Part shown: one piece after another, positions 5,930-61,945 of the stretch
Position numbering within the stretch: the stretch's first letter is position 1
How the letters are laid out: the number at the start of each line of letters is the position of its first letter
Virus record (IMG/VR): IMGVR_UViG_3300046616_000314
Coordinates: 412,616-476,615 of that record
DNA from: a virus
DNA length: 64,000 bases
Strand: one strand, 5' to 3'
Program-made: the position numbers and the translations under genes
The notes under the pieces: generated by a model
Told to the model about the DNA's origin: nothing
Database searches by the model: none
The model's input: only the letters and a program-made list of their open reading frames with translations

Positions 5930-6801
5930 TAGTAGCGATACCAAACGTCTCCATCAACGCCGCCCGATGGGGCATTGGGAGAAACCGTCACGTTATAAAT
6001 TGAAGAAATTCCGCCTTGGAAGACACGAGTAGTTTTCGCATCAACGTCTTGTTTACGCGCAGCCGATGACGGTTGGTTCGGAGCTTGAAGCAGCAATTGA
6101 CCGCCCATTGTGTCGCCAGACTTAGCAACATAGCCAGCCAAAACAGCCGGATTGACTGGAACATAACCCAAGGCATTGTTGATGCCAGCGGCGTTATTAA
6201 TGAAACCTAGCGGGTTTGCGGTACCATTGTACGGAGTGTAGCCTAGAAGATCGGTGATATCTTGTGCGACAACAACCACGTTCGCGATAAGAGGTCCGCG
6301 ACCGCCTTGGAACGTAATCGAGTAAACGGGCGTCGTGATGTCGTTACCTGTTAGACCGCTACCAGCAGCCGTAATACGACCATCGGCGCCAACGGTAATG
6401 TTTGCTGATTGGTAGACACCAGCGATGACACCGGTGTTCGACAAGGTAACGGGAATAGCGACATCCGCCGTACCATCGAACGAAACGGAGCCACTTGCCG
6501 CGCCTGACAAAGAAATAGTGCGAGGAGTTGACAGTCTGGAAACCGAAAGACCGGTCCATGCACCATTGGCATACGTCTTGAAGAGACCGGTGGATGTATC
6601 GAGCCAGAGTTGACCCGTGCGACCGTTAGCGGGCTGATCGGGACCGGCACTGTTTTGTAGAAGCTTTACGAAGTTATTCGAGTAGGGTTCACCCCAATCG
6701 GTAACGTCCTTGCCCGGCAGAACGAGCGACGTGCTTGTTGAATCCACCGCATAGCGTTGAATATCGAAATCACCATCAATGGATTTTACCAAATAACTCA
6801 T
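5929..6801 (-). CDS. Tail fibre protein, paralogue of the 3810 gene N-terminal half
   Basis: 290 residues. The N-terminus has the fibre pattern D-W-G-E-P-Y-S-N-N-F-V-K-L-L-Q-N followed by G-Q-L-W-L-D-T-S-T-G, and a central I-T-V-G-A-D-G-R-I-T-A repeat, both shared with the 3810 gene. No tail-collar domain is seen. An M-G-G-Q-L-L-L-Q segment near residue 235 is common in fibre shafts. Ends in TAATG overlap with the glycine-rich gene, implying coupled expression. Confidence 0.75.
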   Translation of the reverse strand: MSYLVKSIDGDFDIQRYAVDSTSTSLVLPGKDVTDWGEPYSNNFVKLLQNSAGPDQPANGRTGQLWLDTSTGLFKTYANGAWTGLSVSRLSTPRTISLSGAASGSVSFDGTADVAIPVTLSNTGVIAGVYQSANITVGADGRITAAGSGLTGNDITTPVYSITFQGGRGPLIANVVVVAQDITDLLGYTPYNGTANPLGFINNAAGINNALGYVPVNPAVLAGYVAKSGDTMGGQLLLQAPNQPSSAARKQDVDAKTTRVFQGGISSIYNVTVSPNAPSGGVDGDVWYRY

Positions 6802-6815
6802 AAAATATTTTACCT

Positions 6816-7403
6816 TTAGCTCATAAAGATACGAATGGTGTAGACCACTTCGATAGTTCTATTTAAGGCTTTTTGAACAGGGTGAAAAATGACGTGGGTC
6901 AGAAGACGACCTTGACCAACGATAGGATCGTAAGCCTTCAAGCCCAGTTCATCGAACACGAATGCACTTTCGGTATCAGCCGCGTTATCGAACACGTCTT
7001 GACCCGAAGGTTCGCCAGCAGCCAACAGACAGGTCACAACGATATCCGAATAGGTGTCGTTTTGAGTGTGCTGGATACGCATGTAATTTGCCGAAGAATC
7101 GGCATTCAACGGCGACAGATCATCAACCACCTTGCGATAGGTTTGGTTGTAGAGTTGGGCGGTCTTACCCGTCACGTTTGGCGGGAAGTACGTTACCGCA
7201 CCAGTACCCGAGACTGTCGAGGCGCCGTTGCCAAACACCATTTCATGAATGTGACCAGTAGGACGGTTCGCCAGACTGAGAGCCAGGGCTTCGCTCATGT
7301 TTTCGAAGTGGATAGCATTCTTCTTATCAACGAGAATTTCACCAGTAATGGCGTCTCGGATAAGCACAAAGCCTTCAACAGTGGGGAACATCTTATCGCT
7401 CAT
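6816..7403 (-). CDS. Probable virion or tail-associated protein, 195 aa
   Basis: Three ATGs occur in tandem (7409, 7406, 7403). AGAAGG ends at 7410, so the third ATG has the best spacing and is chosen. The N-terminal 30 residues (G-F-V-L-I-R-D-A-I-T-G-E-I-L) resemble the neighbouring 44-aa ORF. The remainder is mixed alpha/beta with H-E-M-V-F-G-N-G-A-S-T, a segment common in phage structural proteins. Lies between fibre genes and the 1577-aa protein, so probably structural. Confidence 0.65.
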   Translation of the reverse strand: MSDKMFPTVEGFVLIRDAITGEILVDKKNAIHFENMSEALALSLANRPTGHIHEMVFGNGASTVSGTGAVTYFPPNVTGKTAQLYNQTYRKVVDDLSPLNADSSANYMRIQHTQNDTYSDIVVTCLLAAGEPSGQDVFDNAADTESAFVFDELGLKAYDPIVGQGRLLTHVIFHPVQKALNRTIEVVYTIRIFMS

Positions 7404-7527
7404 CATCATCCTTCTTATTATGGTCGCGCTTAGTCAAAAGAACTTCTCCCGAATCAATATCTTTGATCACTAGGAATTCGACCATTCGAGTATTGGTCTT
7501 ATCGTCTACGTCTTTTTCTTCGCTCAT
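7393..7527 (-). CDS. 44-aa ORF resembling the N-terminus of its downstream neighbour
   Basis: Starts at ATG 7527 and ends TAA at 7395-7393, overlapping the next gene's start region. Its core F-L-V-I-K-D-I-D-S-G-E-V-L-L aligns with F-V-L-I-R-D-A-I-T-G-E-I-L of the 6816-7403 protein, so it looks like a truncated paralogue. No clear Shine-Dalgarno; a late motif is only 11 nt upstream. It may be translated or may act only as a leader. Confidence 0.5.
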   Translation of the reverse strand: MSEEKDVDDKTNTRMVEFLVIKDIDSGEVLLTKRDHNKKDDDER

Positions 7528-7538
7528 AATGCTTTCAA

Positions 7539-7545
7539 TATTTAT
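7539..7545 (-). promoter_or_regulatory. Late-type promoter motif ATAAATA
   Basis: Preceded by C on the - strand. It sits 11 nt before the 44-aa ORF start, shorter than the usual 21-32 nt, but about 135 nt before the 6816-7403 gene. Confidence 0.45.
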
Positions 7546-7552
7546 GTGTAAA

Positions 7553-10500
7553 TTAAATCAGTCTTTGGTCAGGATTGTAACCAAGTTTATTTTTACCATC
7601 ATACACTAACGAACCCGAGGAATGCACTATTCCTGATTGTTGTAGAATATAGATGGTGCTTCCCGCAGCAGGAGCTTTAGTAAAGGTGATTGTTACACCG
7701 CTACCACTACTTGCCACGGTGTAATCAATACCAAATGTCTTGGGAACGTTGATTGGATAACCGGTGTAGTCATCAGTAATGATTTGAATACCATTCGAAT
7801 TGTACGGCACTTCATTTACGGTAATCTGAATTCCGGCTGACGAAGTAAACTCAGGAAGAGTAAAGACCTTAGATGTACCGTCTCCCGAGCGTGTAGCTTT
7901 CGTAAGTTGCTCTGATCCAATGCGGGTATTATGAGTACCGCGCTTCAACTCAGTCAAAACGATTGCGTTGCTTGTTTCTTCCATCTTGAAGAATTCAATG
8001 CGTTCACCATTGATCCAAATAACTCCTGGCTCCGATACATACTCACGAATACTTACTGCATTGGTAATTGTATTAGAAATGTACTGTTCAGCCATCAACG
8101 TAACATTGCTGATTACGCTTGTATTAGACAGATGAATTTCTGTGTCCGTTGAGGTAACGCTATTAGCCAGAACGCCATCTGCGTTCTTGTTCCACTGAAC
8201 AAATTCCCAGGCTTCACGGCGGAATACGTAGATCGGCTTCGTTTCACCAGCGTAGGCATTGGGAACGGCGCCAGGATTAGGGACATCGTTTCCGACGTAA
8301 ACGGATGAGTTACCCACGACTTCACTACCGCCGATTGGACCGTAATCCAGGCTTAGAACTTCAAGTGGGCGAGCATCGTAGTCACCCGTTTCGAAGGGCG
8401 TAATCAGATCACGGCTAGGCATATTCATCGAAACGTGCCAAGTCTTAGCTCCGAATGCGGGCGAAGCTTGGAACGATGTCACCATAACTTTGTCAGCCGA
8501 CGTGCCAATAGCTAGACCATTGACCGGGATATATTCGCCATTCATGGTGATCCAAGTATAGTTGGAACCATATGGTGAGTGGATATCGTACTGACCTTCG
8601 GGATTGGCATCGAAATACGTATTCAAGATATTCAGACGATCAGCATTTGTGAACGTCATGACTTGAACCAAGCCAGTGATGGGAGCCGTAATCGTCAAGG
8701 TTCCAGCGGACACCGTATAATCAGTGTTCGGAATGAGACGCTTGCCGTTCATATCAACGAATGTACAGTTGGTTTCGTCAGTTGCCGGTGTTGTCGGATT
8801 GGTGAGAGCAACAGGACCGCTATAGGTCAACTCTTGAAGATAGACTTGCGTATCTTGTGGAGCACCAGGGTACGGTAATTGCTGAATAGTAACAGTGACG
8901 GGATAACCATCGGGCTTACCAAACAATTGTGTAATCGTTAGCTGATCAGTGCCATCAAAAACGGCATCGTCATAGCTTTGACCATCAATGTATACGACGA
9001 TCAATTCCTGAGAGGTCGGAACCACTTCTAGAGTGACACTGATATCGCCCGCTTCTTTGTGATATTCCTTTACACTCGTAATCTTGGTGTAGCTGGACAT
9101 ACCGAACGTACGAATTTCTACATGCTCTGCACCAGAGACGGCATCAACGTTGACAATCGAATTGACCCAATCAACGGTGTAAGACGCGGCAGGAACACGT
9201 AGACCATCCACGAATACATGAACGCCGTCATGCGCTTGGCATTCCTTGATGTTGATTGCGTAAGACGAGCCAACCGCATTCGAAACATCCGATTGGAAAG
9301 AACGTTGTGCCGGGACGCCCGAGGACCATGCTGCATCAATCGTCATGGCAAGTTGTTCACCCGAGCCGACAACCATCAATTCTTGTGGACGATTGGCGCC
9401 ATAAACAGCGTCGGCATAGCTAAGTGCGTTGCCGTTTGAATTCAGATATTCTTCATCCTGAACCGAAGCGGTGGCATTGCCCGTGGCGTTGCCATCCACG
9501 TCATAGTCGCGCCAGGAATTGTCCAGCAATTCACCACCATCTAGAACGTTGGCTTTGAATTCCAAACCCATCAGGCGGCGCAGATTCTTTTCTGCGTTTG
9601 CGCCTTGAGGATCATAGAATTGGCGAATGCGATCTGCTTCAGCCCCTTCGGTGAGGTCATTACGAAGCGTTACGAAAACATCGGTGTCGCCATACAGCGG
9701 GCGCGTGACTGTCAGCTTATCATCTGCGACTTCGAAATCAGCCGTAACCAGAGACGTACCGTTTGCCTTGACATCAATTAGATATCCAGCGGGATCGGTA
9801 TCCAGGGTGAACACTTGAGGAAGTGACGTTTGGAAATTGACCGAAGTCGTCTCGATAATGTGTTGCGGATTCAAGCTGTCGCGAATGACGACATGGATCA
9901 AGGCATCATGGTTAGGTGGTGTGACATAGACGTGTTGACCACCAGCCGTTTGCGAAACGGTAGTAACGGTTGGTTCTTTGATTTCGAATTGCGCATCAGA
10001 CACCGGACCAGTGGCGCCAGGGGTAGAATTGAAATAGATGTCATTGATATTATTGGGGTAGCTTGGACCAAAATACGTACGATTGACACGGATGCGCCCG
10101 CGCGCATGAACGTAAGGGCTTGCCGGTGTCCAAATTGCGGAAAGCGTATACCATTTATTCAATTCCCAGTTTGTAGTATTGAATAAGTCGGCTGATTCAT
10201 AGCCTTCTCCATACTTCAAGCCATAACCATCAACAACGCCGTTAGCATCTTCCGCGTCGAACGACGGACGAACATACGCCGGGATAACAATAGGGGGAGT
10301 GGTGAGCCCGGCGTTAGCATACGCAGCGGGATAATCAGTCGTTAAAGAGGTCGCGTTTGCAATCTTACGCAGCGTAAAATCAATTCGGTACGTTTGACCG
10401 ATTACCGGAGTAAACTCTTCTTGATTGGTTACGTGGAATGATTCGTGTGGCTTAGAACGGAAAACCTTAACGGGTTGTCCTTGATCCGTGACGGTAACTT

Positions 10501-31219: not shown

Positions 31220-31597
31220 TTAGTTGAAAATTTTGATAGCTTTTAGATCGGCACCAATATGCTTGACGTTGATCGGACCCAGACCCAGGCAAGTCAACGT
31301 GGGTTCCTTGAACACGGTGTGAGCCGCATCAACGATCATATCCACACCGCACACCGACTTGTAAGCGGCGAGCAATTGGTGAAGTTCAGCTTCGGGGGCG
31401 ATCAGCGCAATCTTGGCGACGCCGCCTGATTCCATATATGCCTTGGCATCCTTGGGGAAGCGGCGCATAGAATCGAGTAGCGCGCCCACAAAGGCATGAC
31501 CACCTTGTGCCACCATCTTACCACGGGCACCATTCATCTTCTCAATGGCTTCAGCACTGAAGATTGTATAAAGTTTAATATTGTATGGGCTTGCCAT
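31220..31597 (-). CDS. Peptidyl-tRNA hydrolase, Pth2 family
   Basis: 125 residues, the full Pth2 length. Signature region R-G-K-M-V-A-Q-G-G-H-A-F-V-G-A near residues 25-39, then K-I-A-L...E-A-E-L-H-Q-L, I-V-D-A-A-H-T-V-F and the C-terminal L-G-L-G-P...L-K. Pth2 releases tRNA from stalled peptidyl-tRNA; it is the archaeal/eukaryotic type, while bacteria normally use the unrelated Pth1. Start overlaps the previous stop (TAATG). Its presence with deformylase and ClpA genes elsewhere in the window suggests phage control of translation by-products. Confidence 0.85.
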   Translation of the reverse strand: MASPYNIKLYTIFSAEAIEKMNGARGKMVAQGGHAFVGALLDSMRRFPKDAKAYMESGGVAKIALIAPEAELHQLLAAYKSVCGVDMIVDAAHTVFKEPTLTCLGLGPINVKHIGADLKAIKIFN

Positions 31598-33235: not shown

Positions 33236-34552
33236 TTAGGCGAGAGCCTTTTGGACGATGTTGCCGTAATCAATCGTCGCGTCGATGTTGCCGTAAACAA
33301 CGACGGTCGGAACGCTTTCGACAATCGCCTTAGCCGCTGCGATCACGTCTTCCTTGGTCACGTCAGCGAAGTCTTGGGCGATTTCAGCCAGACCGCGAAC
33401 TTCGCCGTTGTGGAACAGATCGGAAGCGATCTTTTGCGCCATACCGGTCGAACGATCTTCGATCTTGAAGATTTGCGTCACGACTTGGTTGCGAACGCGG
33501 TTCCAATCGGCATCAGCGATGATGCCCTTGGCAACCTTCGCCAGTTCACCAGCCGAGGATTCAAGGAATTCCGCAACCTTCGGAGCCGTGGTGGCGCCGT
33601 CGATGTAGAACAGGCTTCCTTGCGAGGACAGCGGATAGATGCCGGTTTGGACCGAATAGCAAAGCGAACGGGCTTCGCGAACTTCTTGGAACATGGGCGA
33701 GGACATGCCGCCGCCCAGCAGCAGAGCCAGCATCTTGTAGTTCAGGTGCGTCTTTTCGTACGGACCAGGGATGTACCACGAGGTAGTCACCGAGGGCTGT
33801 TCGAAGCGATCATCCACGACAGCAGCCGTGCCACCGACATATTGCACGGTTTCTTGCGGTTGTTGATTGCTGGCAGGAATGTCCGAGAAACGTTCGGCGG
33901 CTTCCTTCACGAACGTATCGTGATCGACATTACCCACACCGATCACGATCAGAGTGTCAGCGTGATAGTTGCGAGCCATGTAGTCGGTGATCATTTCGCG
34001 AGTGAACGACGCGACATTTTCGGTCGAACCCAGGATCGGACGACCAGCGGCTTGCGCCGGGAACGCGGTTCGGAACCACGTATCCATGGCTTGCGAATCG
34101 AGTTGGTCGGCGTATTCGTTGATTTCCTGATGAACCACGATCTTTTCCGAGGCGATGTCGGCTTCGGTGAATGTGGAATTCGTCAGCACGTCGGACAGGA
34201 TATCCAGGGCGACCGGAATATGCGACGCCAGACCGGTGACATGGTAGGCAGTCAGGTTGCGAGACGTGAAGGCGTTGATATCGGCGCCGATGGATTCGAC
34301 TTCGTAGACGATATCCTTGGACGAACGGGCATTCGTGCCCTTGAATGCCATGTGTTCAAGGAAGTGCGAGATACCGTTTTCGGCTTCGACTTCGTTGTTG
34401 GCGCCGGTGTTGGCGAAGACAGCGACAGTGACGGTATTGATTGGCTTGGCGTATGTGGCGACGCGCAGACCATTGGGAAGGCGGCTAACCTTCACTTCGG
34501 TTGCGGTCGAAGCGAATTCTGCCAATGTGGCATTAAAATTTTTCGTAGTCAC
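33236..34552 (-). CDS. M16 family zinc peptidase (processing-peptidase type)
   Basis: 438 residues, the length of single-chain M16B proteins. Inverted zinc motif H63-F-L-E66-H67, with the third ligand candidate Glu143 76 residues later (V-V-H-Q-E-I-N-E-Y), as expected. Also G-R-P-I-L-G-S-T-E and the C-terminal-domain R-E-A-R-S-L-C-Y-S-V motif. GTG start with AGGAG five bases upstream. It looks most like the alphaproteobacterial and mitochondrial processing peptidase branch, pointing to capture from a host. The target could be a phage structural protein or a host peptide. M16 enzymes are not standard phage genes. Confidence 0.9.
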   Translation of the reverse strand: MTTKNFNATLAEFASTATEVKVSRLPNGLRVATYAKPINTVTVAVFANTGANNEVEAENGISHFLEHMAFKGTNARSSKDIVYEVESIGADINAFTSRNLTAYHVTGLASHIPVALDILSDVLTNSTFTEADIASEKIVVHQEINEYADQLDSQAMDTWFRTAFPAQAAGRPILGSTENVASFTREMITDYMARNYHADTLIVIGVGNVDHDTFVKEAAERFSDIPASNQQPQETVQYVGGTAAVVDDRFEQPSVTTSWYIPGPYEKTHLNYKMLALLLGGGMSSPMFQEVREARSLCYSVQTGIYPLSSQGSLFYIDGATTAPKVAEFLESSAGELAKVAKGIIADADWNRVRNQVVTQIFKIEDRSTGMAQKIASDLFHNGEVRGLAEIAQDFADVTKEDVIAAAKAIVESVPTVVVYGNIDATIDYGNIVQKALA

Positions 34553-36122: not shown

Positions 36123-36671
36123 ATGCCTATTGATCTGGATAAAATTCAGGAATCCCCACACCTTTTGGATATTCTTATTCAAATGGAAGATGTCTTGGAT
36201 TCGTTGGACATTTACGTTTTTAAGAATTGGTATCGCGGCGAAGTTGTCGAGGGTCCGGTTGTGCGCCGTTATTGGCTAGACATGACTTTGAAATACGCCA
36301 AAGACAAAATGCCAGACCCCAAGGCTGCTTATCGATTACTCAAGCACGGTGTTCGGGTAGACTTTTGGCAAGCCACCATGAACGATGGTTCCTATACCGA
36401 AATCTCAAATCAGACTGAAGAACAGGCTGAAGAAGAAGATAAGGGCGAATCTGTGTGGATGGTTCGCATCAGCATCCCACGTCGATTGATCACGCAAATG
36501 TCCGCTGAAGAAATGGATATGTACGACGACGACGTTGACGTTGATGACGTTGAAGACGCCAAGGACACCGGTATTGATGACGAATCTGCCTACAAGTCCG
36601 AAGATATGCCAGGAATGGAAGATGCACCGCCCGGCGGTGAAGAACTCCCGCCTCAAGGGGGTGGTTTCTAA
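36123..36671 (+). CDS. Probable late/virion protein with acidic tail, 182 aa
   Basis: Residues 1-85 contain L-D-S-L-D-I-Y-V-F-K-N-W...K-M-P-D-P-K-A-A-Y-R-L-L-K-H-G-V, a pattern I associate with a conserved structural or assembly protein of large T4-like phages. Residues 130-182 are very acidic (D-D-D-V-D-V-D-D-V-E-D) then Pro/Gly-rich. The late motif upstream supports virion or assembly use. Exact role unknown. The next gene's ATG overlaps its stop (TAATG). Confidence 0.6.
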   Translation: MPIDLDKIQESPHLLDILIQMEDVLDSLDIYVFKNWYRGEVVEGPVVRRYWLDMTLKYAKDKMPDPKAAYRLLKHGVRVDFWQATMNDGSYTEISNQTEEQAEEEDKGESVWMVRISIPRRLITQMSAEEMDMYDDDVDVDDVEDAKDTGIDDESAYKSEDMPGMEDAPPGGEELPPQGGGF

Positions 36672-37441
36672 TGTTTAAACTCACCGAAGGTATGCGCGCG
36701 GGTGACTTGGAAGACTTGGTTCTGCCTTTGCTCACAGTTGATGAATTCGTTAGTAAGCTAGATGATGACGCTATCGTTATTGGCTTTTATGTGCATGACA
36801 AAGATGCAGCCGACGACTTGAACCGTTTCTTGCAAAAATCACCTACCCAATACCTTGACACTGACATTTCCCCTGCCCCCGATCAGCACGGTTACTACCT
36901 CGTATTCGTGGAATTGATGAATGACAACACGATTGTCAAAAATATTGAAGACATTCTTCTTGAAGTTACTCCGTTGGTCAGTATCAAGGAATGGCAAATC
37001 CGTGTTCGCGGTCAGGAAAAAATCATGCCGTTCTCAAATAAATTCCTTGCAAAATATTTCACTCGTCTGCGAAATGAAAATGTCGAGAACGCGACACATG
37101 ATACGGATGCCGGTGCTAGCGGAGACGACGAGATCGTTGAATTTTTGGAAGCCAGTGACCTTCTTGGAGCAAGTATCCAGGGTGGAAAGTTGATTCTAGA
37201 GGGCGCGTACACGAGCATTGAGGCGCAAGTTGTTGGATTTGGTGCGGTTGATGATCTAATAAAGAATCATAAACTTTTGGAGACTGCACTTAGCTTTGAC
37301 TTTACTGGTGCAGCAGAATCCAGACGAATCACGATTATGATGGGCGAAGGTTGGGGCTACGTCCGTGCCGGTGACTTGTCAATCCTTGAAAAAAATGATT
37401 CTGGTCAAGCTATCTTGTTGCAAAACGCACGTTTGAGATAA
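36671..37441 (+). CDS. Probable late/virion protein, 256 aa
   Basis: Translationally coupled to the preceding gene. Two-part protein: residues 20-120 include H-G-Y-Y-L-V-F-V-E-L and I-K-E-W-Q-I-R-V-R, similar in style to conserved assembly proteins paired with the previous gene; residues 155-256 form a separate beta-rich domain. No family name can be given. Confidence 0.55.
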   Translation: MFKLTEGMRAGDLEDLVLPLLTVDEFVSKLDDDAIVIGFYVHDKDAADDLNRFLQKSPTQYLDTDISPAPDQHGYYLVFVELMNDNTIVKNIEDILLEVTPLVSIKEWQIRVRGQEKIMPFSNKFLAKYFTRLRNENVENATHDTDAGASGDDEIVEFLEASDLLGASIQGGKLILEGAYTSIEAQVVGFGAVDDLIKNHKLLETALSFDFTGAAESRRITIMMGEGWGYVRAGDLSILEKNDSGQAILLQNARLR

Positions 37442-38362: not shown

Positions 38363-39502
38363 GTGATTTGGCCCTTTAACGATTGGACGAAAGCACGCGA
38401 GAAACGCGAACGCGAAATATTGCGTGATATCAAGGTACTCGAAAGCCAACACGCCCTCTTGAACGCGGCGACGGAAACAGCCGACGCAGCAAATGTTGTT
38501 ACCCACACACTTAAGCAGCGTCTTGAAGATGCTGTTCATCAATTCCAAAGCACTGCACGTATCCTAAACGACGCCCTGATCATTTGTGATGCTACGGGTG
38601 CCATTCAAGCATTTAATCCAGCCGCCGAACGTTTGTTCGGCTTGTCAGCAGACGACGTACGCTCAACGCCGATTGGTGACTTGATTTTATCGGATTGGCT
38701 GAATCTCACTGAGAACGATGAAGGCGTAGGAAAGCACTCGTCGGGTGAATTCCTACGCCTCGATATCAACCACACCCGTCTAGAACGTTCAGACGGAAGC
38801 CTTATCGATCTGTTCGTGCTACGTCAGCGCATGACCGAACTGGAAAATTATAAATCAGTTTTCGAAACATCCTTCGACGGCATCCTTGTCGTCAAAAATC
38901 GCATGATCGTCGCCGCCAACTCTTCCATCGGAAAATTGTTCGGTTACGAAATTGACGATCTGCTTTCGAAGAACGTTGATATTCTTATCGCAGAGAAAGA
39001 CCGGATGCTCTTGGGCGACCACATTGTCAACAGCAAGCTTCAAGGAACCCACCACGACGGCGGCAACCTGAACGTCTATTTCGCTGCGACACCGATCAAA
39101 TGGGACTCCGAACCGGCGAGCCTCATTACGATCAAAAAGATTGCGGAAAGCCGCATGACCGCTCCTAGCTCACGTTTGATTTGTGGCTTCGGAGAAGATT
39201 TCAAAATCACTTTTGCTAACGCCGCGTTCGCGAAGCATTACAATGTCCAAAAGACCGATCTGCCAGGGATGGATATCCGAACCCTTCTCCCCGACAACGA
39301 GTGTGATCCATTCCTGATTCACATTTCCAGCCTCACTCCCGAAGAACCTAGCCGTAGAATGCAGCTTCAAACGAATGCCGCTGACGGTACGTCTCGTTTA
39401 CATGAGTGGACAGATTACGCCACGTTCGATGAAGATGGCGTAGAATATCAGCGCATCGGCAAAGATATTTCCAAGCGTTTCAATACCAAAGATAATTTTT
39501 AA
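38363..39502 (+). CDS. Triple PAS-domain protein without output domain, 379 aa
   Basis: GTG start with GAGG upstream. An N-terminal coiled coil (residues 8-60) precedes three PAS-like repeats: about 65-150 (I-L-N-D-A-L-I-I-C-D...F-N-P-A-A-E-R-L-F-G), 165-255 (F-E-T-S-F-D-G-I-L-V-V...A-N-S-S-I-G-K-L-F-G-Y) and 275-370 (diverged). No histidine kinase, GGDEF or DNA-binding domain follows. PAS domains sense ligands or mediate protein contacts; the late-type promoter suggests expression with virion genes. Convergent with the next gene, overlapping it by 23 bases. Confidence 0.75.
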   Translation: MIWPFNDWTKAREKREREILRDIKVLESQHALLNAATETADAANVVTHTLKQRLEDAVHQFQSTARILNDALIICDATGAIQAFNPAAERLFGLSADDVRSTPIGDLILSDWLNLTENDEGVGKHSSGEFLRLDINHTRLERSDGSLIDLFVLRQRMTELENYKSVFETSFDGILVVKNRMIVAANSSIGKLFGYEIDDLLSKNVDILIAEKDRMLLGDHIVNSKLQGTHHDGGNLNVYFAATPIKWDSEPASLITIKKIAESRMTAPSSRLICGFGEDFKITFANAAFAKHYNVQKTDLPGMDIRTLLPDNECDPFLIHISSLTPEEPSRRMQLQTNAADGTSRLHEWTDYATFDEDGVEYQRIGKDISKRFNTKDNF

Positions 39503-56782: not shown

Positions 56783-56880
56783 TCGCCCATTAACCATAAT
56801 TTTTAGTGGGCGAAATAGGCGTCCCCTCAAAATGTGAGAAGGACGCCTATTAAGTATGTCAGAAAATTATCGTTCTGACA
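56783..56880 (-). promoter_or_regulatory. Array of three perfect hairpins between ClpA and the 56043 gene
   Basis: TCGCCCA/TGGGCGA (56783-56789, 56807-56813); AATAGGCGTCC/GGACGCCTATT (56814-56824, 56841-56851) with an inner CTCA/TGAG; TGTCAGAA/TTCTGACA (56857-56864, 56873-56880). T-tracts are weak on the - strand, so at least part may be leader or processing structure rather than terminators. Confidence 0.7.
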
Positions 56881-56883
56881 ATT

Positions 56884-59211
56884 TTATTCAGCAATTTCGG
56901 CGACTACCGCGACTTCAGGCGGCTTGGTAGCCGCGATAGGGGTCACGACGATCTTGTCTTCGACCACTCGCACCATGGCGATGCCGCCGTACGGAGTCAG
57001 TTCGCCGATCAGCATCATCTTGGAAAGCGGCTTCTTGATCGTTTCCTTGATCAGACGGTTCAACGGGCGGGCGCCCATCGCACGGTCGTAGCCGTTCTTG
57101 GCGAGCCACTGAACAGCAGCTTCATCAAGGTCCAGGGTGACGTTGCGTTCCTTCGCCATGTCTTCCAACTGACCGATGAACTTATGGACAATCTTTTCCA
57201 TATTTTCAGGAGCCAGGAAGTTGAACATGACCGTGGCGTCGAGGCGGTTGCGGAATTCGGGGCTGAAACGCTTCTCGATAGCCTTTTCCGCATCCTGCGT
57301 TTGTTGCTGACCACCGAAGCCCAGAGGGTTCTTAGCCAGCATTTCCGCGCCCGCGTTCGAAGTCAGGATCAGAATAATATTCTGGAACGAGACCGTCTTA
57401 CCCGTCGAGTTGGACAGGCGACCATCGTCCATGACTTGAAGCAGGATGTTTTGAATGTCGGCGTGAGCCTTTTCAAATTCGTCCAGCAGGACCACGGCGC
57501 GCGGGTGATTATCCACTTCGTTGACCAGCTTGCCACCAGCCGCGCCACCTTCGCCGTGACCGACGTAGCCAGGAGGCGAGCCTATCAGCTTAGCGACCGA
57601 ATGCTTTTCCATGTATTCCGACATATCGTACTTGAGCATCGGAACGCCCAGCGTGTCAGCCAGGGCACGAGCGGTTTCGGTCTTACCCGAACCGGTCGGA
57701 CCAGCGAAGAGGTAGCAACCCGCCGTCTTGTTGGCTTCGCGCAGACCGGCACGGGCAATGTAAACGTCGGTTTCCAGGGCTTCGATGGCTTGATCTTGAC
57801 CGAAGACGCGAGCCCGAAGGTTCTTTTCCAAGTCCTTCAGGTTGTCTTGTTCATCACCCGAGACCTGTTGAGCCGGAATGTTGGCGACTTCGGAAATCTC
57901 GTACTCGATTTGCGCAACATCGATGATCTTGATGCGCTCGGCTTCCGGGGTGATACGCTGACGGGCGCCCGCGCCGTCGATCAGATCAATCGACTTGTCG
58001 GGGTTCTTTTGACCGGTGATGTAGCGAGTCGAGAGATCAACCGCCGCATCAAGGGCTTCGTCGGTGTACGTAACTTCGTGGAACTTTTCGAAGGTTTCAC
58101 GCAGACCGCGCAGGATCAGCTTGGTTTCCGCGATGGTCGGCTCATCAGCCGTGACCTTCTGGAAACGACGACGAAGGGCGGCGTCCTTGTCGAAATGCTT
58201 CTGATATTCGTCCAGGGTGGTCGAACCGATGCAACGCAGCGTGCCGCGAGCCAGGGCGGGCTTCAGCAGGTTCGCAACGTCCATGGTACCTTGGCTCGAT
58301 GCCCCGGCGCCCATGATGTTGTGAATTTCGTCCACGAACAGAATGGAGCCTTCCACCATTTCCAGGGACTTGATGACTTGCTTCATACGTTCTTCGAAAT
58401 CACCACGGTACTTTGTACCGGCGATCAGATCAGCGATTTCGAGCGAATAGACCGTCGAAGCCTTCAGATTGTCGGGGACTTCGCCCTTGACGATCTTATA
58501 TGCCAGACCTTCGGCGATGGCAGTCTTACCCACGCCAGCGTCACCGACGATCAGCGGGTTGTTCTTGCGGCGACGCGAAATGATTTGTTGGATGCGCAGT
58601 AGTTCGACCGAACGACCAATCAGCGGATCGATGCGACCAGCGACAGCTTCGGCGTTCAAATCCTTGGTGTACTTCTTCAGGATTTCCTTGGCGTCTTCCA
58701 AGGTCAGAACTTCCTTGGATTGCTGGATCGGCTCGCCATCGGGACCGACTTCACCATTGGGGCTCAGAATGCGGGCGATCTTGAGTTGAACGTCGGCGCC
58801 GCCGAACTTCTTGAGGACAGCGATAGCGTGGCTGTCGTCGTCATCGTGGCTGACCAGATGATAGAGAATGTGACCAGCCGTGGTGGCATTGGGCTGACCC
58901 TCGCGTTGCGAGAACATCGCGTGCGACACGGCGCGGGCGATAATGTGGTTGAAACCTTCCGAGGCGACCGGGCGACCACCCGAGACCGGAATGATGCCGC
59001 TTTTTAGAATGCTTTCCAGAATCGGCGTCAGGTTGGTATCCGCCGGGGTCAGCACCTTGGACAAAATGTCCTGAACTTGCGGTTCTGCCAGGAGAGCCAG
59101 CAGAAGGTGTTCGGGAGTCACGTACTCATGGCGGTGCTTGACGGCAATGGCTTCGGCGCGGTGAATGTTCGCCAAAATTTCTTGATGTTGGGGAGGCTGA
59201 TTTTTAGACAT
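56884..59211 (-). CDS. clpA: ClpA-type AAA+ unfoldase
   Basis: 775 residues (bacterial ClpA about 758). Clp N-domain 1-150; D1 Walker A G-D-A-G-V-G-K-T 223-230 and Walker B I-L-F-V-D-E 290-296; D2 Walker A G-P-T-G-S-G-K-T 504-511 and Walker B V-V-L-L-D-E 574-579. L-G-F at 630-632 is at the place of the ClpP-docking loop, so it may dock to host ClpP. All ATPase motifs are intact. Start overlaps the deformylase stop (TAATG). Phage-encoded ClpA is unusual; it may redirect host proteolysis or unfold virion proteins. Confidence 0.95.
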
Positions 59212-59717
59212 TAATTAGCACCTTTAACCTTTTTACTACGACGTGTCTTCGCTCGCGTGAGAACCAAACGGCTTACCCGAGTTGTGAAACGAACCCCGTT
59301 CACATGATCATATTCGTGAGCATAGCACCGGGCGTTCATATCCGCAAACTTTTCGTTCACGAAAATTCCTTCCGCATTTTGGTAGCGGACTTCGATCCAC
59401 GACGGACGATCCACGTCCAGCCAGAGATCGGGAAAGCTCAAGCATCCCTCTGCACCCTTGACGATATCATCACTGGTAGCCAGGATTTCGGGATTGAAAC
59501 AAGCGATAATTTGTTCCGAATCAGCCGGTTGCATGATGAACATACGAAACGGGAGACCGACTTGCGGTGCGGCAAGACCCATGCCGTTGAATTCGCGCAT
59601 CACGGTAGTCATGGATTCTACCAGATACGACACGTCAAACGACGTGACTGAAAAATCGAACGGGTCGGTAGGTTCCTTGAGGATCGGATCATCCTCACTG
59701 ACGAGCTTAAGCACCAT
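59211..59717 (-). CDS. def: Peptide deformylase
   Basis: 168 residues, standard length. All three motifs intact: G-M-G-L-A-A-P-Q (45-52), E-G-C-L-S with metal ligand Cys92, and H134-E135-x-x-H138. Removes formyl from nascent N-terminal Met. Phage deformylases are known from cyanophages. TAATG overlaps on both sides tie it to the secreted protein upstream and ClpA downstream. C-terminus is unusually basic (R-A-K-T-R-R-S-K-K-V-K), which could favour ribosome binding. Confidence 0.95.
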   Translation of the reverse strand: MVLKLVSEDDPILKEPTDPFDFSVTSFDVSYLVESMTTVMREFNGMGLAAPQVGLPFRMFIMQPADSEQIIACFNPEILATSDDIVKGAEGCLSFPDLWLDVDRPSWIEVRYQNAEGIFVNEKFADMNARCYAHEYDHVNGVRFTTRVSRLVLTRAKTRRSKKVKGAN

Positions 59718-60214
59718 TATCGCATACCATTCGCGTAGGTTTGGTTGACCATGGCGATACCACGGTCACGAAGGGCGTTGCACTGTGACACATTGCCCAT
59801 GCTGATGTTCGCCTGCAAACTGCGACGAATATAATAGGTGTCGTTGAAGATCGCGTTGCGGATGTTTTGAGCTTCTTCGAAAGTCAGGACACCGCCCGAA
59901 GTGCGTTCATTCTTGGTGACACGGCGTGCCGCAGTACCGATGGCTTCACCCAGAGCATCTTCAGCGTGAATGCAGGCGATGATATCTTGTTGGCTGACCG
60001 GGCGACGTTCCGAAATCGGACCCAGCGGGCGATTTTGATTTTCGTAGTCGATCTGGCGACGAGCGTGGTTGCATTGAATAGTGACGCAACGACCAGCATC
60101 AATGGCATCGCCGAGAGATTCCGCGTCACTGATCCGCACCTGACCATGGGCTCGACCAGCGTTGGCGAGACCGATGAGGGCGATGAGAATCAGGACCGGA
60201 GCGGCAATACGCAT
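59717..60214 (-). CDS. Secreted protein with signal peptide, 165 aa
   Basis: Signal peptide about residues 1-24 (I-L-I-A-L-I-G-L-A-N-A, possible cleavage after A-N-A or A-H-G). The mature part has four cysteines (C-V-T-I-Q-C, I-I-A-C, Q-C-N-A) that may form disulfides in the periplasm. No family recognised. Its own promoter lies upstream (60247-60274). Oddly, it is coupled to cytoplasmic deformylase and ClpA. Confidence 0.65.
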   Translation of the reverse strand: MRIAAPVLILIALIGLANAGRAHGQVRISDAESLGDAIDAGRCVTIQCNHARRQIDYENQNRPLGPISERRPVSQQDIIACIHAEDALGEAIGTAARRVTKNERTSGGVLTFEEAQNIRNAIFNDTYYIRRSLQANISMGNVSQCNALRDRGIAMVNQTYANGMR

Positions 60215-60246
60215 TAAAACCTCGTGAAAAATTTATCGTATGATCA

Positions 60247-60274
60247 AATTTAACACGAAATTCTCGTTTGTCAA
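60247..60274 (-). promoter_or_regulatory. sigma70-like promoter TTGACA-N16-TAAATT
   Basis: On the - strand TTGACA is 60274-60269, overlapping the DnaJ stop codon; TAAATT is 60252-60247. It would drive secreted protein, deformylase and ClpA apart from DnaJ. Confidence 0.5.
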
Positions 60275-61101
60275 GAGTTGGGAGGGTTTTTAAATGAACG
60301 AAGTATCGTTTTTTGTTCTTCTGATACATTATTAGGCAAAATAATGTTAACAACGATATGTAATGGACCAAAGATGTCAGTACGTCCCAAGGCAGGCATA
60401 CCTTTACCATCAATAGTAATCATTGTTCCAGTTTGAACATCCGCCGGTAATTTGTACTGAATGTTTTCTCCACTCAGGGTGCGAACCCAAAATGTGTCAT
60501 TGATCATCGCGTCAACCGCATCAATGTCAGCACGGGTAAACAACTCGGTTCCCTGACGTTGGAACATACCATGTTCAGCAACGTGGATGATGACATACAA
60601 GTCGCCGGGAGGTAGTGACTTGTCGGCATCATCACCTAGACCCGTCATTTTCAATCGGGCTCCTGATTCAATACCGCGAGGAATGTTGAATTTGATTTCC
60701 CGATTCGCGGGAGCCCCTAGATTCATGGAAACCTCACCACCTTCAAACGCTTGTAAGAGCGTGACTTGATAATGAGTGGTGTAATCCCGATTGGTGGGCT
60801 TAGGGGGCGGTCCAGGGTGTTGTTGATGCCAGAAATTCCGAAGGATGTCTTCAAAACTCGGGTTGTTCATATCAAAATGGAACTGGCGATTTCCACCCGA
60901 TGATTGTTGGCGAAGACTATCGCGCGAAGCTTGATCTTTGATTTGATTATAAGCGTGCGTGACTTCTTCAAATTTTGCGCGAGCTTCATCAGTATTGTTA
61001 AGATCAGGATGATACTTCTTAGCCAAACCACGATAAGCGGTCTTGATAACATCATCGTTCGCATCTTGGGGAACGCCCAAGACGGCATAAGGATTGGTCA
61101 T
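60271..61101 (-). CDS. DnaJ/CbpA-type co-chaperone
   Basis: 276 residues. J-domain 1-68 with the Hsp70-activating His-Pro-Asp at 31-33 and Y-A-V-L-G-V start; a short Gly/Asn linker; then C-terminal substrate-binding domains (I-E-S-G-A-R-L-K, L-P-P-G-D-L-Y-V, D-V-Q-T-G-T-M-I). No zinc-finger cysteines, so it is the class B or CbpA type. It would recruit host DnaK to phage proteins. Lies between spanins and the deformylase/ClpA group. Confidence 0.9.
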   Translation of the reverse strand: MTNPYAVLGVPQDANDDVIKTAYRGLAKKYHPDLNNTDEARAKFEEVTHAYNQIKDQASRDSLRQQSSGGNRQFHFDMNNPSFEDILRNFWHQQHPGPPPKPTNRDYTTHYQVTLLQAFEGGEVSMNLGAPANREIKFNIPRGIESGARLKMTGLGDDADKSLPPGDLYVIIHVAEHGMFQRQGTELFTRADIDAVDAMINDTFWVRTLSGENIQYKLPADVQTGTMITIDGKGMPALGRTDIFGPLHIVVNIILPNNVSEEQKTILRSFKNPPNS

Positions 61102-61118: not shown

Positions 61119-61502
61119 TTATTTCTTTGGTTCTTCGGGCTTCTCGGAATTTTTCTTGGCATCCTTCGTCGCAGTTTCATGCGAAGCGATAGCCTTTTCG
61201 AGAAAATCGATTACCGCATTTTGTTGACCAATATGAGTGTTGATGTCAACCAAATTATCGGACAGAGCCTTGAAATTTTTTTCGTCCAGGGCGAGCAACA
61301 ACACGTCATCGTCTTTCAAGGTAGCCAACAGTTCTGTCAAGCGTGCCTTGTTATATGCCTTCCATTGGACATCACGGACTTGAAGTGGGTCAACAACCGG
61401 GGCAGTAACCGGGGCGTTGGGGTTCACGACCACATCCGGCTTACGACTAATATCGCATCCGGTTAGTAATACACAGAACAGAATTACTTTGAAAATTTTC
61501 AT
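61119..61502 (-). CDS. Outer-membrane lipoprotein, probable o-spanin
   Basis: 127 residues. Lipobox L-L-T-G-C with Cys16 after a short hydrophobic signal. The mature chain is Pro-rich near the N-terminus, then helical. It overlaps the upstream membrane-anchored coiled-coil gene by four bases (ATGA), the usual arrangement of a two-component spanin. Would link to the i-spanin and fuse the membranes at lysis. Longer than classic Rz1. Confidence 0.7.
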   Translation of the reverse strand: MKIFKVILFCVLLTGCDISRKPDVVVNPNAPVTAPVVDPLQVRDVQWKAYNKARLTELLATLKDDDVLLLALDEKNFKALSDNLVDINTHIGQQNAVIDFLEKAIASHETATKDAKKNSEKPEEPKK

Positions 61503-61903
61503 TTCTTCGAAGTCTCGTTGATGTTAGCCAGATTTTTATTGCTGGTTGCGTTTGCCCATTTTTCAACGTCATCAATATTAGTCTTCGCTGCTTTTCCAGC
61601 GTCATAGCTATTGACTTCGTTCTTACGAGTGGTTCCCGCTGTACGCAGAGCCGACATCTTGTCGTTGGTCTCTTTGGTCAGACGAGCAATTTCCTGCACA
61701 TTGGCAGACAATGCGTTCAAAGCCGCATTCGTTGTGCGCAGTTGGGTTTCTGCAACAGCCTTATCCACGGCAAGCTTCTTGATTTCAGCTTGCGACGATT
61801 TGAAATACCAGACAGCCGAACCCACAATCGCCAGTAAGAGAACACCGACAATGGCTCCGACAATAAGTTTGGCTTTAATTTCTGCAATATTTGGAATATT
61901 CAT
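61499..61903 (-). CDS. Probable i-spanin, membrane anchor plus coiled coil
   Basis: Start set at ATG 61903; TTG 61924 would overlap the + promoter. One transmembrane helix (about residues 13-34, I-V-G-A-I-V-G-V-L-L-L-A-I-V) then a long coiled coil (K-A-V-A-E-T-Q-L-R-T-T-N-A-A-L-N-A-L), as in Rz-type i-spanins. Overlaps the lipoprotein gene. Unusually, chaperone genes follow in the same direction. Confidence 0.7.
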   Translation of the reverse strand: MNIPNIAEIKAKLIVGAIVGVLLLAIVGSAVWYFKSSQAEIKKLAVDKAVAETQLRTTNAALNALSANVQEIARLTKETNDKMSALRTAGTTRKNEVNSYDAGKAAKTNIDDVEKWANATSNKNLANINETSKK

Positions 61904-61917
61904 ACTCGTATTTAGCG

Positions 61918-61945
61918 TTGACAAATCTCTATTCTAGGATAGTAT
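61918..61945 (+). promoter_or_regulatory. sigma70-like promoter TTGACA-N16-TAGTAT
   Basis: TTGACA at 61918-61923, TAGTAT at 61940-61945. Drives the membrane gene at 61977. Confidence 0.65.

Follow-up and report, generated by a model that had tools for sequence, protein, structure and literature searches.

A phage-encoded ClpA beside the lysis genes of a huge phage and its probable place in a viral Clp protease

Introduction

Why does a phage carry the gene of a ClpA unfoldase next to its lysis genes, and whose ClpP would this unfoldase serve? The question is raised by a stretch of 64,000 nucleotides, hereafter the window, corresponding to bases 412616-476615 of the 561,116 bp virus record IMGVR_UViG_3300046616_000314. 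The minus strand of the window carries a block of six genes that encode, in this order, an i-spanin, an o-spanin, a J-domain protein (J-protein), a small secreted protein, a peptide deformylase and a ClpA-type Hsp100 unfoldase; a strong hairpin lies 3' of the ClpA gene. The initial annotation of the window read the last four genes as a protein-quality cassette whose ClpA would engage the ClpP of the host and whose deformylase and ClpA would be controlled jointly. The existence of a phage proteostasis cassette is borne out here, and its ClpA is predicted to be able to dock a ClpP. Host ClpP is a possible partner but not the only candidate, since the genome has its own ClpP, ClpS and ClpX. We favour, with moderate confidence, the reading that the block represents the ClpA arm of a ClpAP(S) machine encoded by the phage, with the J-protein as its link to host DnaK and with late protein quality control or assembly as its task.

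A set of Clp components in one phage genome

The ClpA gene (56884-59211, minus strand) encodes 775 amino acids comprising a Clp_N domain and two AAA+ modules with both Walker A/B pairs intact, the layout of a class I Hsp100 protein. The pore loops read KYRG in the first module (D1) and GYVG in the second (D2), and the ClpP-docking loop of D2 reads LGF (residues 630-632), within the I/L-G-F/L pattern; the initial description of a complete ClpA with a docking LGF is thus correct. Its alignment with E. coli ClpA (1ksf/1r6b, E 4e-196) spans the full length, and its model matches 1r6b and the ClpAPS structure 7uiv in Foldseek. It aligns to ClpA in a single stretch and to ClpB and ClpC in two, and does not possess the middle domain of the latter. 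ClpA (TIGR02639, 855.7 bits) is its best NCBIfam family by 122 bits; we place the protein in the ClpA type as a divergent phage branch rather than among the equivalogs. From these features, ATP-dependent unfolding and activation of ClpP are predicted. Delivery of substrates by ClpS needs the D1 pore-2 loop of ClpA (PMC9663308), which is kept in the phage protein (GAGASS versus GAGAAS).

The remaining Clp components, as well as the absences reported below, were established by family searches of the record. A ClpP of 201 amino acids belonging to the S14 proteases is encoded at record positions 223435-223977 (PF00574, E 2e-74) with an intact S97/H122/D171 triad. For its docking pocket we rely on the positions presumed from established knowledge of E. 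coli ClpP, rather than on a structure computed here: L48, Y62, F82, M92 and L114 are kept, L189I is conservative, and Y60H, F112S and I90T are changes. ClpS (218715-218945, E 1e-30), whose best match is Caulobacter ClpS, carries the N-D-D-x-T-P-M-E-F motif and the N-degron pocket residues N34, D35, D36, T38, M40 and H66. A ClpX with a Cys4 domain lies at about 215 kb of the record, and ClpX, ClpS and ClpP cluster within about 9 kb. It is well supported that the phage genome encodes a full set of Clp parts, which in principle would let it form ClpAP, ClpAPS and ClpXP alone. Judging from its genes, the virus probably brings its own complete Clp protease rather than only borrowing that of its host. 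There is no need to postulate docking to host ClpP, because canonical ClpP, ClpS and ClpX are encoded by the same genome. No Hsp70 was found in the genome, and the phage would need host DnaK.

The same set is found in related phages. All eight clade members of at least 280 kb encode ClpA, ClpX, ClpS and canonical ClpP, and in nine genomes the phage ClpS is linked to ClpX at a distance of about 3-10 kb.

Three further observations concern proteins of similar kinds. Between ClpS and ClpP (L044, record 213500-229500, positions about 6400-9210) lie genes for a MoxR-like AAA ATPase and then a VWA-type protein. A 692-residue protein with two AAA domains (L001, record 169417-172782, positions 13-2091) is a possible further unfoldase or remodeller. 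Several clade phages encode a second, divergent ClpP-family protein (G021:C1:442320-442739; Sinorhizobium phage Phosso, 115158-115679), perhaps a head-maturation protease.

Conservation of the J-protein-ClpA pairing

The initial annotation had proposed a search for the same gene order in relatives, where its absence was to count against the proposal, and the order spanins, J-protein, ClpA is indeed found there: i-spanin, o-spanin, J-protein and ClpA follow one another in most related huge phages, among viral contigs and GenBank phages alike. In about 19 of the 20 distinct phages of the clade, ClpA is preceded on its own strand by a J-protein gene, usually directly and sometimes with inserted genes, while the ClpAs of the clade are only 42-55% identical to that of the window. 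On this comparison of sequences, the J-protein-ClpA order is not due to chance. Full-length J-proteins occur in L009, L010, L011, L036, L037, Phosso and Agrobacterium phage Atu_ph07; the L012-L035 group has a short J-protein of about 127 amino acids with the HPD motif, overlapping or abutting ClpA. In PA5oct the pair directly follows two virion proteins and stands among virion proteins detected by mass spectrometry. Other genes separate J-protein and ClpA in L023 and L037, and L028 has the spanins and no J-protein. ClpA also occurs without a J-protein in the Rak2-like phages, in XaC1 and in Vibrio 2.275.O.

Two of these loci carry unusual neighbours. In L023 (1123-3068) the interval between J-protein and ClpA holds a gene resembling PP-loop ATPases and another that may be of the radical-SAM type, which suggests that this interval is prone to insertion. 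A different small secreted protein is encoded directly upstream of ClpA in L028 (9678-9977), at the usual place of the J-protein.

The bacterial controls came from genome contigs and comprised four clpA loci, three of them useful, so that statements on bacterial absence rest on few cases. None of the four has a J-protein upstream; clpS precedes clpA instead. A second difference lies in the protein itself. A four-residue insertion after the D2 GYVG loop (pore-1 loop residues 548-551, insertion region residues 552-562; 57526-57570, minus strand) is common to the phage clade and shorter in Rak2-like phages. It was not seen in the few bacterial ClpAs aligned, those of E. coli, Acinetobacter, Hydrogenedentota and Desulfobulbus. 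In the ClpA model, residues 550-557 form a low-confidence flexible loop. In a tree whose root is open, the three bacterial ClpAs group together and separately from those of the phages, which speaks for an old rather than a recent acquisition. Some GenBank records labelled as phage, such as Acinetobacter phage MD-2021a, look bacterial (clpS-clpA beside argC and bioH) and served only as bacterial controls; CAKLQH020000043 and similar phage-labelled records are likewise apparent fragments of bacterial chromosomes with the same neighbours.

Docking loop and ClpP pocket

Without exception, the ClpAs of the window's clade carry an I/L/V-G-F docking tripeptide (IGF in Phosso). The Rak2-like ClpAs carry LGM, MGM, MNM or IGG at this place, and the Rak2-like ClpP proteins differ at pocket positions 82, 112 and 114. 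Loop and pocket therefore vary together, as expected of a phage ClpA working with a phage ClpP.

The deformylase and the N-degron route

The deformylase gene (59211-59717, minus strand; 168 amino acids; PF01327, E 8e-41) exceeds the NCBIfam cut-offs of NF001159 and TIGR00079. Its product, rightly called intact from the start, keeps the GxGLAAPQ, EGCLS and HExxH motifs and has a basic C-terminal tail. Deformylases of huge phages are already known (PMC7162821), and like the J-protein and the spanins this one is a standard member of its family.

The initial annotation took the TAATG overlap of the deformylase and ClpA genes as a sign of joint control of N-terminal processing and degradation through an N-degron route served by host ClpP. 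This part of the proposal found no support. The deformylase adjoins ClpA in only four of the phages compared (the window, L009, L010 and Phosso), lies elsewhere in the genome in three, and was not found in Atu_ph07, PA5oct, XaC1 and Vibrio 2.275.O, all of which keep ClpA; in L023 the interval upstream of ClpA holds unrelated genes. The deformylase tree has too little support to separate shared descent from repeated insertion. ClpS recognizes N-terminal Leu, Phe, Trp or Tyr, and a deformylated Met is not among its primary degrons. Neither Aat (PF03588) nor methionine aminopeptidase was found in the genome; with no Aat match, and Bpt not among the searches, a transferase of the host would be needed, namely host Aat for secondary N-degrons. 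Despite the gene overlap and the existence of a phage ClpS, a joint deformylase-ClpA route through host ClpP is very improbable for a phage that has its own ClpP. The N-degron idea as such is strengthened because a phage ClpS was found, and this ClpS would in principle allow the route; only its original basis, the deformylase overlap, is lost.

Anatomy of the block and other genes of the window

The i-spanin gene (61499-61903, minus strand) encodes an Rz-like protein with an N-terminal transmembrane helix that matches the spanin families phrog_739/214 and keeps its position in relatives; its start is likely the ATG at 61903, the longest reading frame beginning at 61924. The o-spanin gene (61119-61502, minus strand; phrog_812, E 3e-9) encodes an Rz1-like lipoprotein with an LLTGC lipobox and shares 4 nt with the i-spanin gene. 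The two thus form a two-component spanin system and stand immediately upstream of the cassette, as first noted. The J-protein gene (60271-61101, minus strand; PF00226, E 3e-18; PF01556, E 2e-30) encodes 276 amino acids with an HPD-bearing J domain and a DnaJ_C domain and no Cys-rich zinc finger; the protein is therefore a type II (CbpA-like) version of the DnaJ co-chaperone originally recognized.

The small secreted protein (59717-60214, minus strand; 165 amino acids) has a signal peptide and no Pfam, PHROG or NCBIfam match. Its AlphaFold2 (AF2) model, with a per-residue confidence (pLDDT) above 80 for residues 71-165, predicts a three-helix bundle, and the fold search with this model gave no confident match (DUF1311 at E 1.9). 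Sequence search of viral contigs returned no relative; the sole one, 38% identical, was found by position in viral contig L009, and L028 has a weak positional analogue that may be due to chance.

All four genes from J-protein to ClpA lie on the minus strand, as first described, but the coupling ascribed to all of them holds for three. TAATG stop/start overlaps join the secreted protein to the deformylase (59717) and the deformylase to ClpA (59211); the J-protein gene overlaps neither neighbour, with 56 nt between it and the secreted protein gene and 17 nt between it and the o-spanin gene. Translational coupling is plausible for the deformylase because no obvious ribosome-binding site precedes it; ClpA is preceded by an AAAGG stretch. 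The hairpin just past ClpA (56810-56852, minus strand) has a minimum free energy of -23.3 kcal/mol (z -5.75; 0 of 200 shuffles equally stable) and a weak U tract, and could act as a terminator or protect the 3' end. Promoter and terminator scans, the simple terminator scan included, performed at about chance level, and only this hairpin was used. From its anatomy, the block from spanins to ClpA resembles a single transcription unit about 5 kb long, headed by the lysis genes. The third-position GC of ClpA (0.68) and of the M16 peptidase (0.67) is markedly above that of the J-protein and spanins (0.40-0.50).

Family matches confirm the two other protein-processing genes claimed for the window, Pth2 (31220-31597) and the M16 peptidase (33236-34552). 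On the plus strand, two proteins encoded at 36123-37441 resemble by eye the pair directly upstream of the spanins in marine relatives; in PA5oct and Atu_ph07 the corresponding position is taken by proteins with the annotation of virion structural proteins. In the window the two genes are about 20 kb away from the spanins, on the opposite strand. A sensor-like protein of 379 residues (38363-39502, plus strand) has two or three PAS domains, which is unusual for a phage.

Proposed function and alternative explanations

We infer that ClpA hexamers, produced from the lysis-gene operon and thus probably late, would use their LGF loops to dock on a ClpP, most likely the one that the phage encodes. 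Phage ClpS and the co-encoded J-protein would steer ClpA to its substrates, the J-protein recruiting DnaK of the host, its expected partner because the genome yielded no Hsp70. Late phage proteins that are misfolded or in surplus, along with chosen host proteins, would be unfolded and then either degraded or released in remodelled form for assembly. The deformylase would act independently of this, helping deformylation to keep pace with the high level of late translation.

Several observations weigh against this proposal. The ClpA score stays below the NCBIfam equivalog cut-off of 993.15 bits. The Y60H, F112S and I90T changes of ClpP might weaken or retune its docking to ClpA. ClpS, ClpX and ClpP lie about 250 kb from ClpA, and their position does not imply co-expression. 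The co-variation of loop and pocket comes from few lineages that are not phylogenetically independent.

The genes from the J-protein to ClpA might instead merely share a late operon with an insertion-prone interval, so that deformylase, secreted protein and ClpA would have no joint function. The variation of deformylase and secreted protein among relatives, the insertion of other genes into this interval in L023 and L037 and the solitary ClpA of Rak2-like phages agree with this, but the J-protein-ClpA pair persists despite the divergence of the ClpAs, and the deformylase-ClpA adjacency recurs; we regard mere co-location as possible but doubtful. A further alternative is a takeover of the host, in which ClpA, ClpS, ClpX and ClpP would remove particular host proteins such as defence factors, regulators or repressors rather than exert quality control. 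The conserved N-degron pocket of ClpS and the presence of ClpX would offer specific recognition routes, and a host-directed use of phage ClpS and ClpP has been proposed (Iyer et al. 2021, PMC7824862). The neighbourhood of ClpA, made of spanins and virion genes, suggests late rather than early expression, and this makes the takeover unlikely as the main role.

E. coli ClpA remodels RepA as a chaperone, a precedent for a phage ClpA that would work mainly without protease, jointly with host DnaK and the J-protein, to assemble virions or remodel aggregates in a ClpB-like role. The J-protein-ClpA pairing, the most conserved part of the block, would suit such a role. It is nevertheless improbable, given that the ClpP-docking loop is invariant across the clade, that canonical ClpP co-occurs in all its large members and that ClpA has no ClpB-type middle domain for contact with DnaK.

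Comparison with known systems

The components themselves are not new. Atu_ph07 encodes ClpA (gp292), DnaJ (gp293), ClpX (gp2), ClpP (gp676) and ClpS (gp708), and the parts of its description covered here do not present this gene order as conserved (Attai et al. 2018, PMC6102473). It shares with the window phage the five proteins in one huge genome and the order spanins, DnaJ, ClpA; its block contains neither deformylase nor secreted protein, and its ClpS pocket is divergent. A review lists ClpA, ClpX, ClpP, ClpS and DnaJ among jumbo phages (PMC7824862). Phosso (PV764938) has i- and o-spanin, DnaJ, deformylase and ClpA in the same order, with ClpP, ClpS and ClpX elsewhere, but no secreted protein, and its ClpA is about 47% identical.

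The bacterial ClpAPS system (E. coli, PDB 6w1z, 7uiv) has the same components, domain layout and docking and N-degron motifs. In bacteria, however, clpS adjoins clpA, with aat nearby in E. coli, whereas phage ClpS lies near ClpX and phage ClpA adjoins a J-protein gene, and the phage protein carries the four-residue insertion after the D2 GYVG loop. The Rak2-like phages (Mimasvirus/Asteriusvirus) also combine a phage ClpA homologue with a phage-encoded ClpP-family protein, but their ClpA stands alone among tail genes, with no J-protein and with altered docking loop and ClpP pocket; no Rak2-like record appeared among the tblastn matches to ClpS. Rki, the J-protein of phage RB43, binds host DnaK (PMC3486835), and a similar engagement of host DnaK is expected of the window J-protein; Rki is a type III protein expressed early, unlike the type II protein encoded here within a lysis-gene block.

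The open-access literature searched gave no account of the conserved spanin-J-protein-ClpA order, the loop/pocket contrast or the D2 insertion, an absence that does not prove novelty. While the components were known before from Atu_ph07, the conservation of the gene order and the phage-specific ClpA insertion appear to be new.

Implications

A wider view, which we put forward tentatively, is that a lineage of huge phages possesses its own Clp set (ClpA, ClpX, ClpS and ClpP) with co-evolved docking and a dedicated J-protein coupling host DnaK to ClpA; together these would form a viral proteostasis pathway that includes an N-degron route and comes on along with the lysis genes. The Rak2-like phages, with loop and pocket both altered, provide a natural experiment on how specific the pairing of ClpA and ClpP is. 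In contrast to the clpS-clpA arrangement of bacteria, the conserved pairing of J-protein with ClpA, present also in the cultivable phages Phosso, Atu_ph07 and PA5oct, suggests a direct hand-over from Hsp70 to ClpA. If the proposal is true, some viruses would own a complete, regulated ATP-dependent protease together with its adaptors, and protein degradation in the infected cell could be set by the virus.

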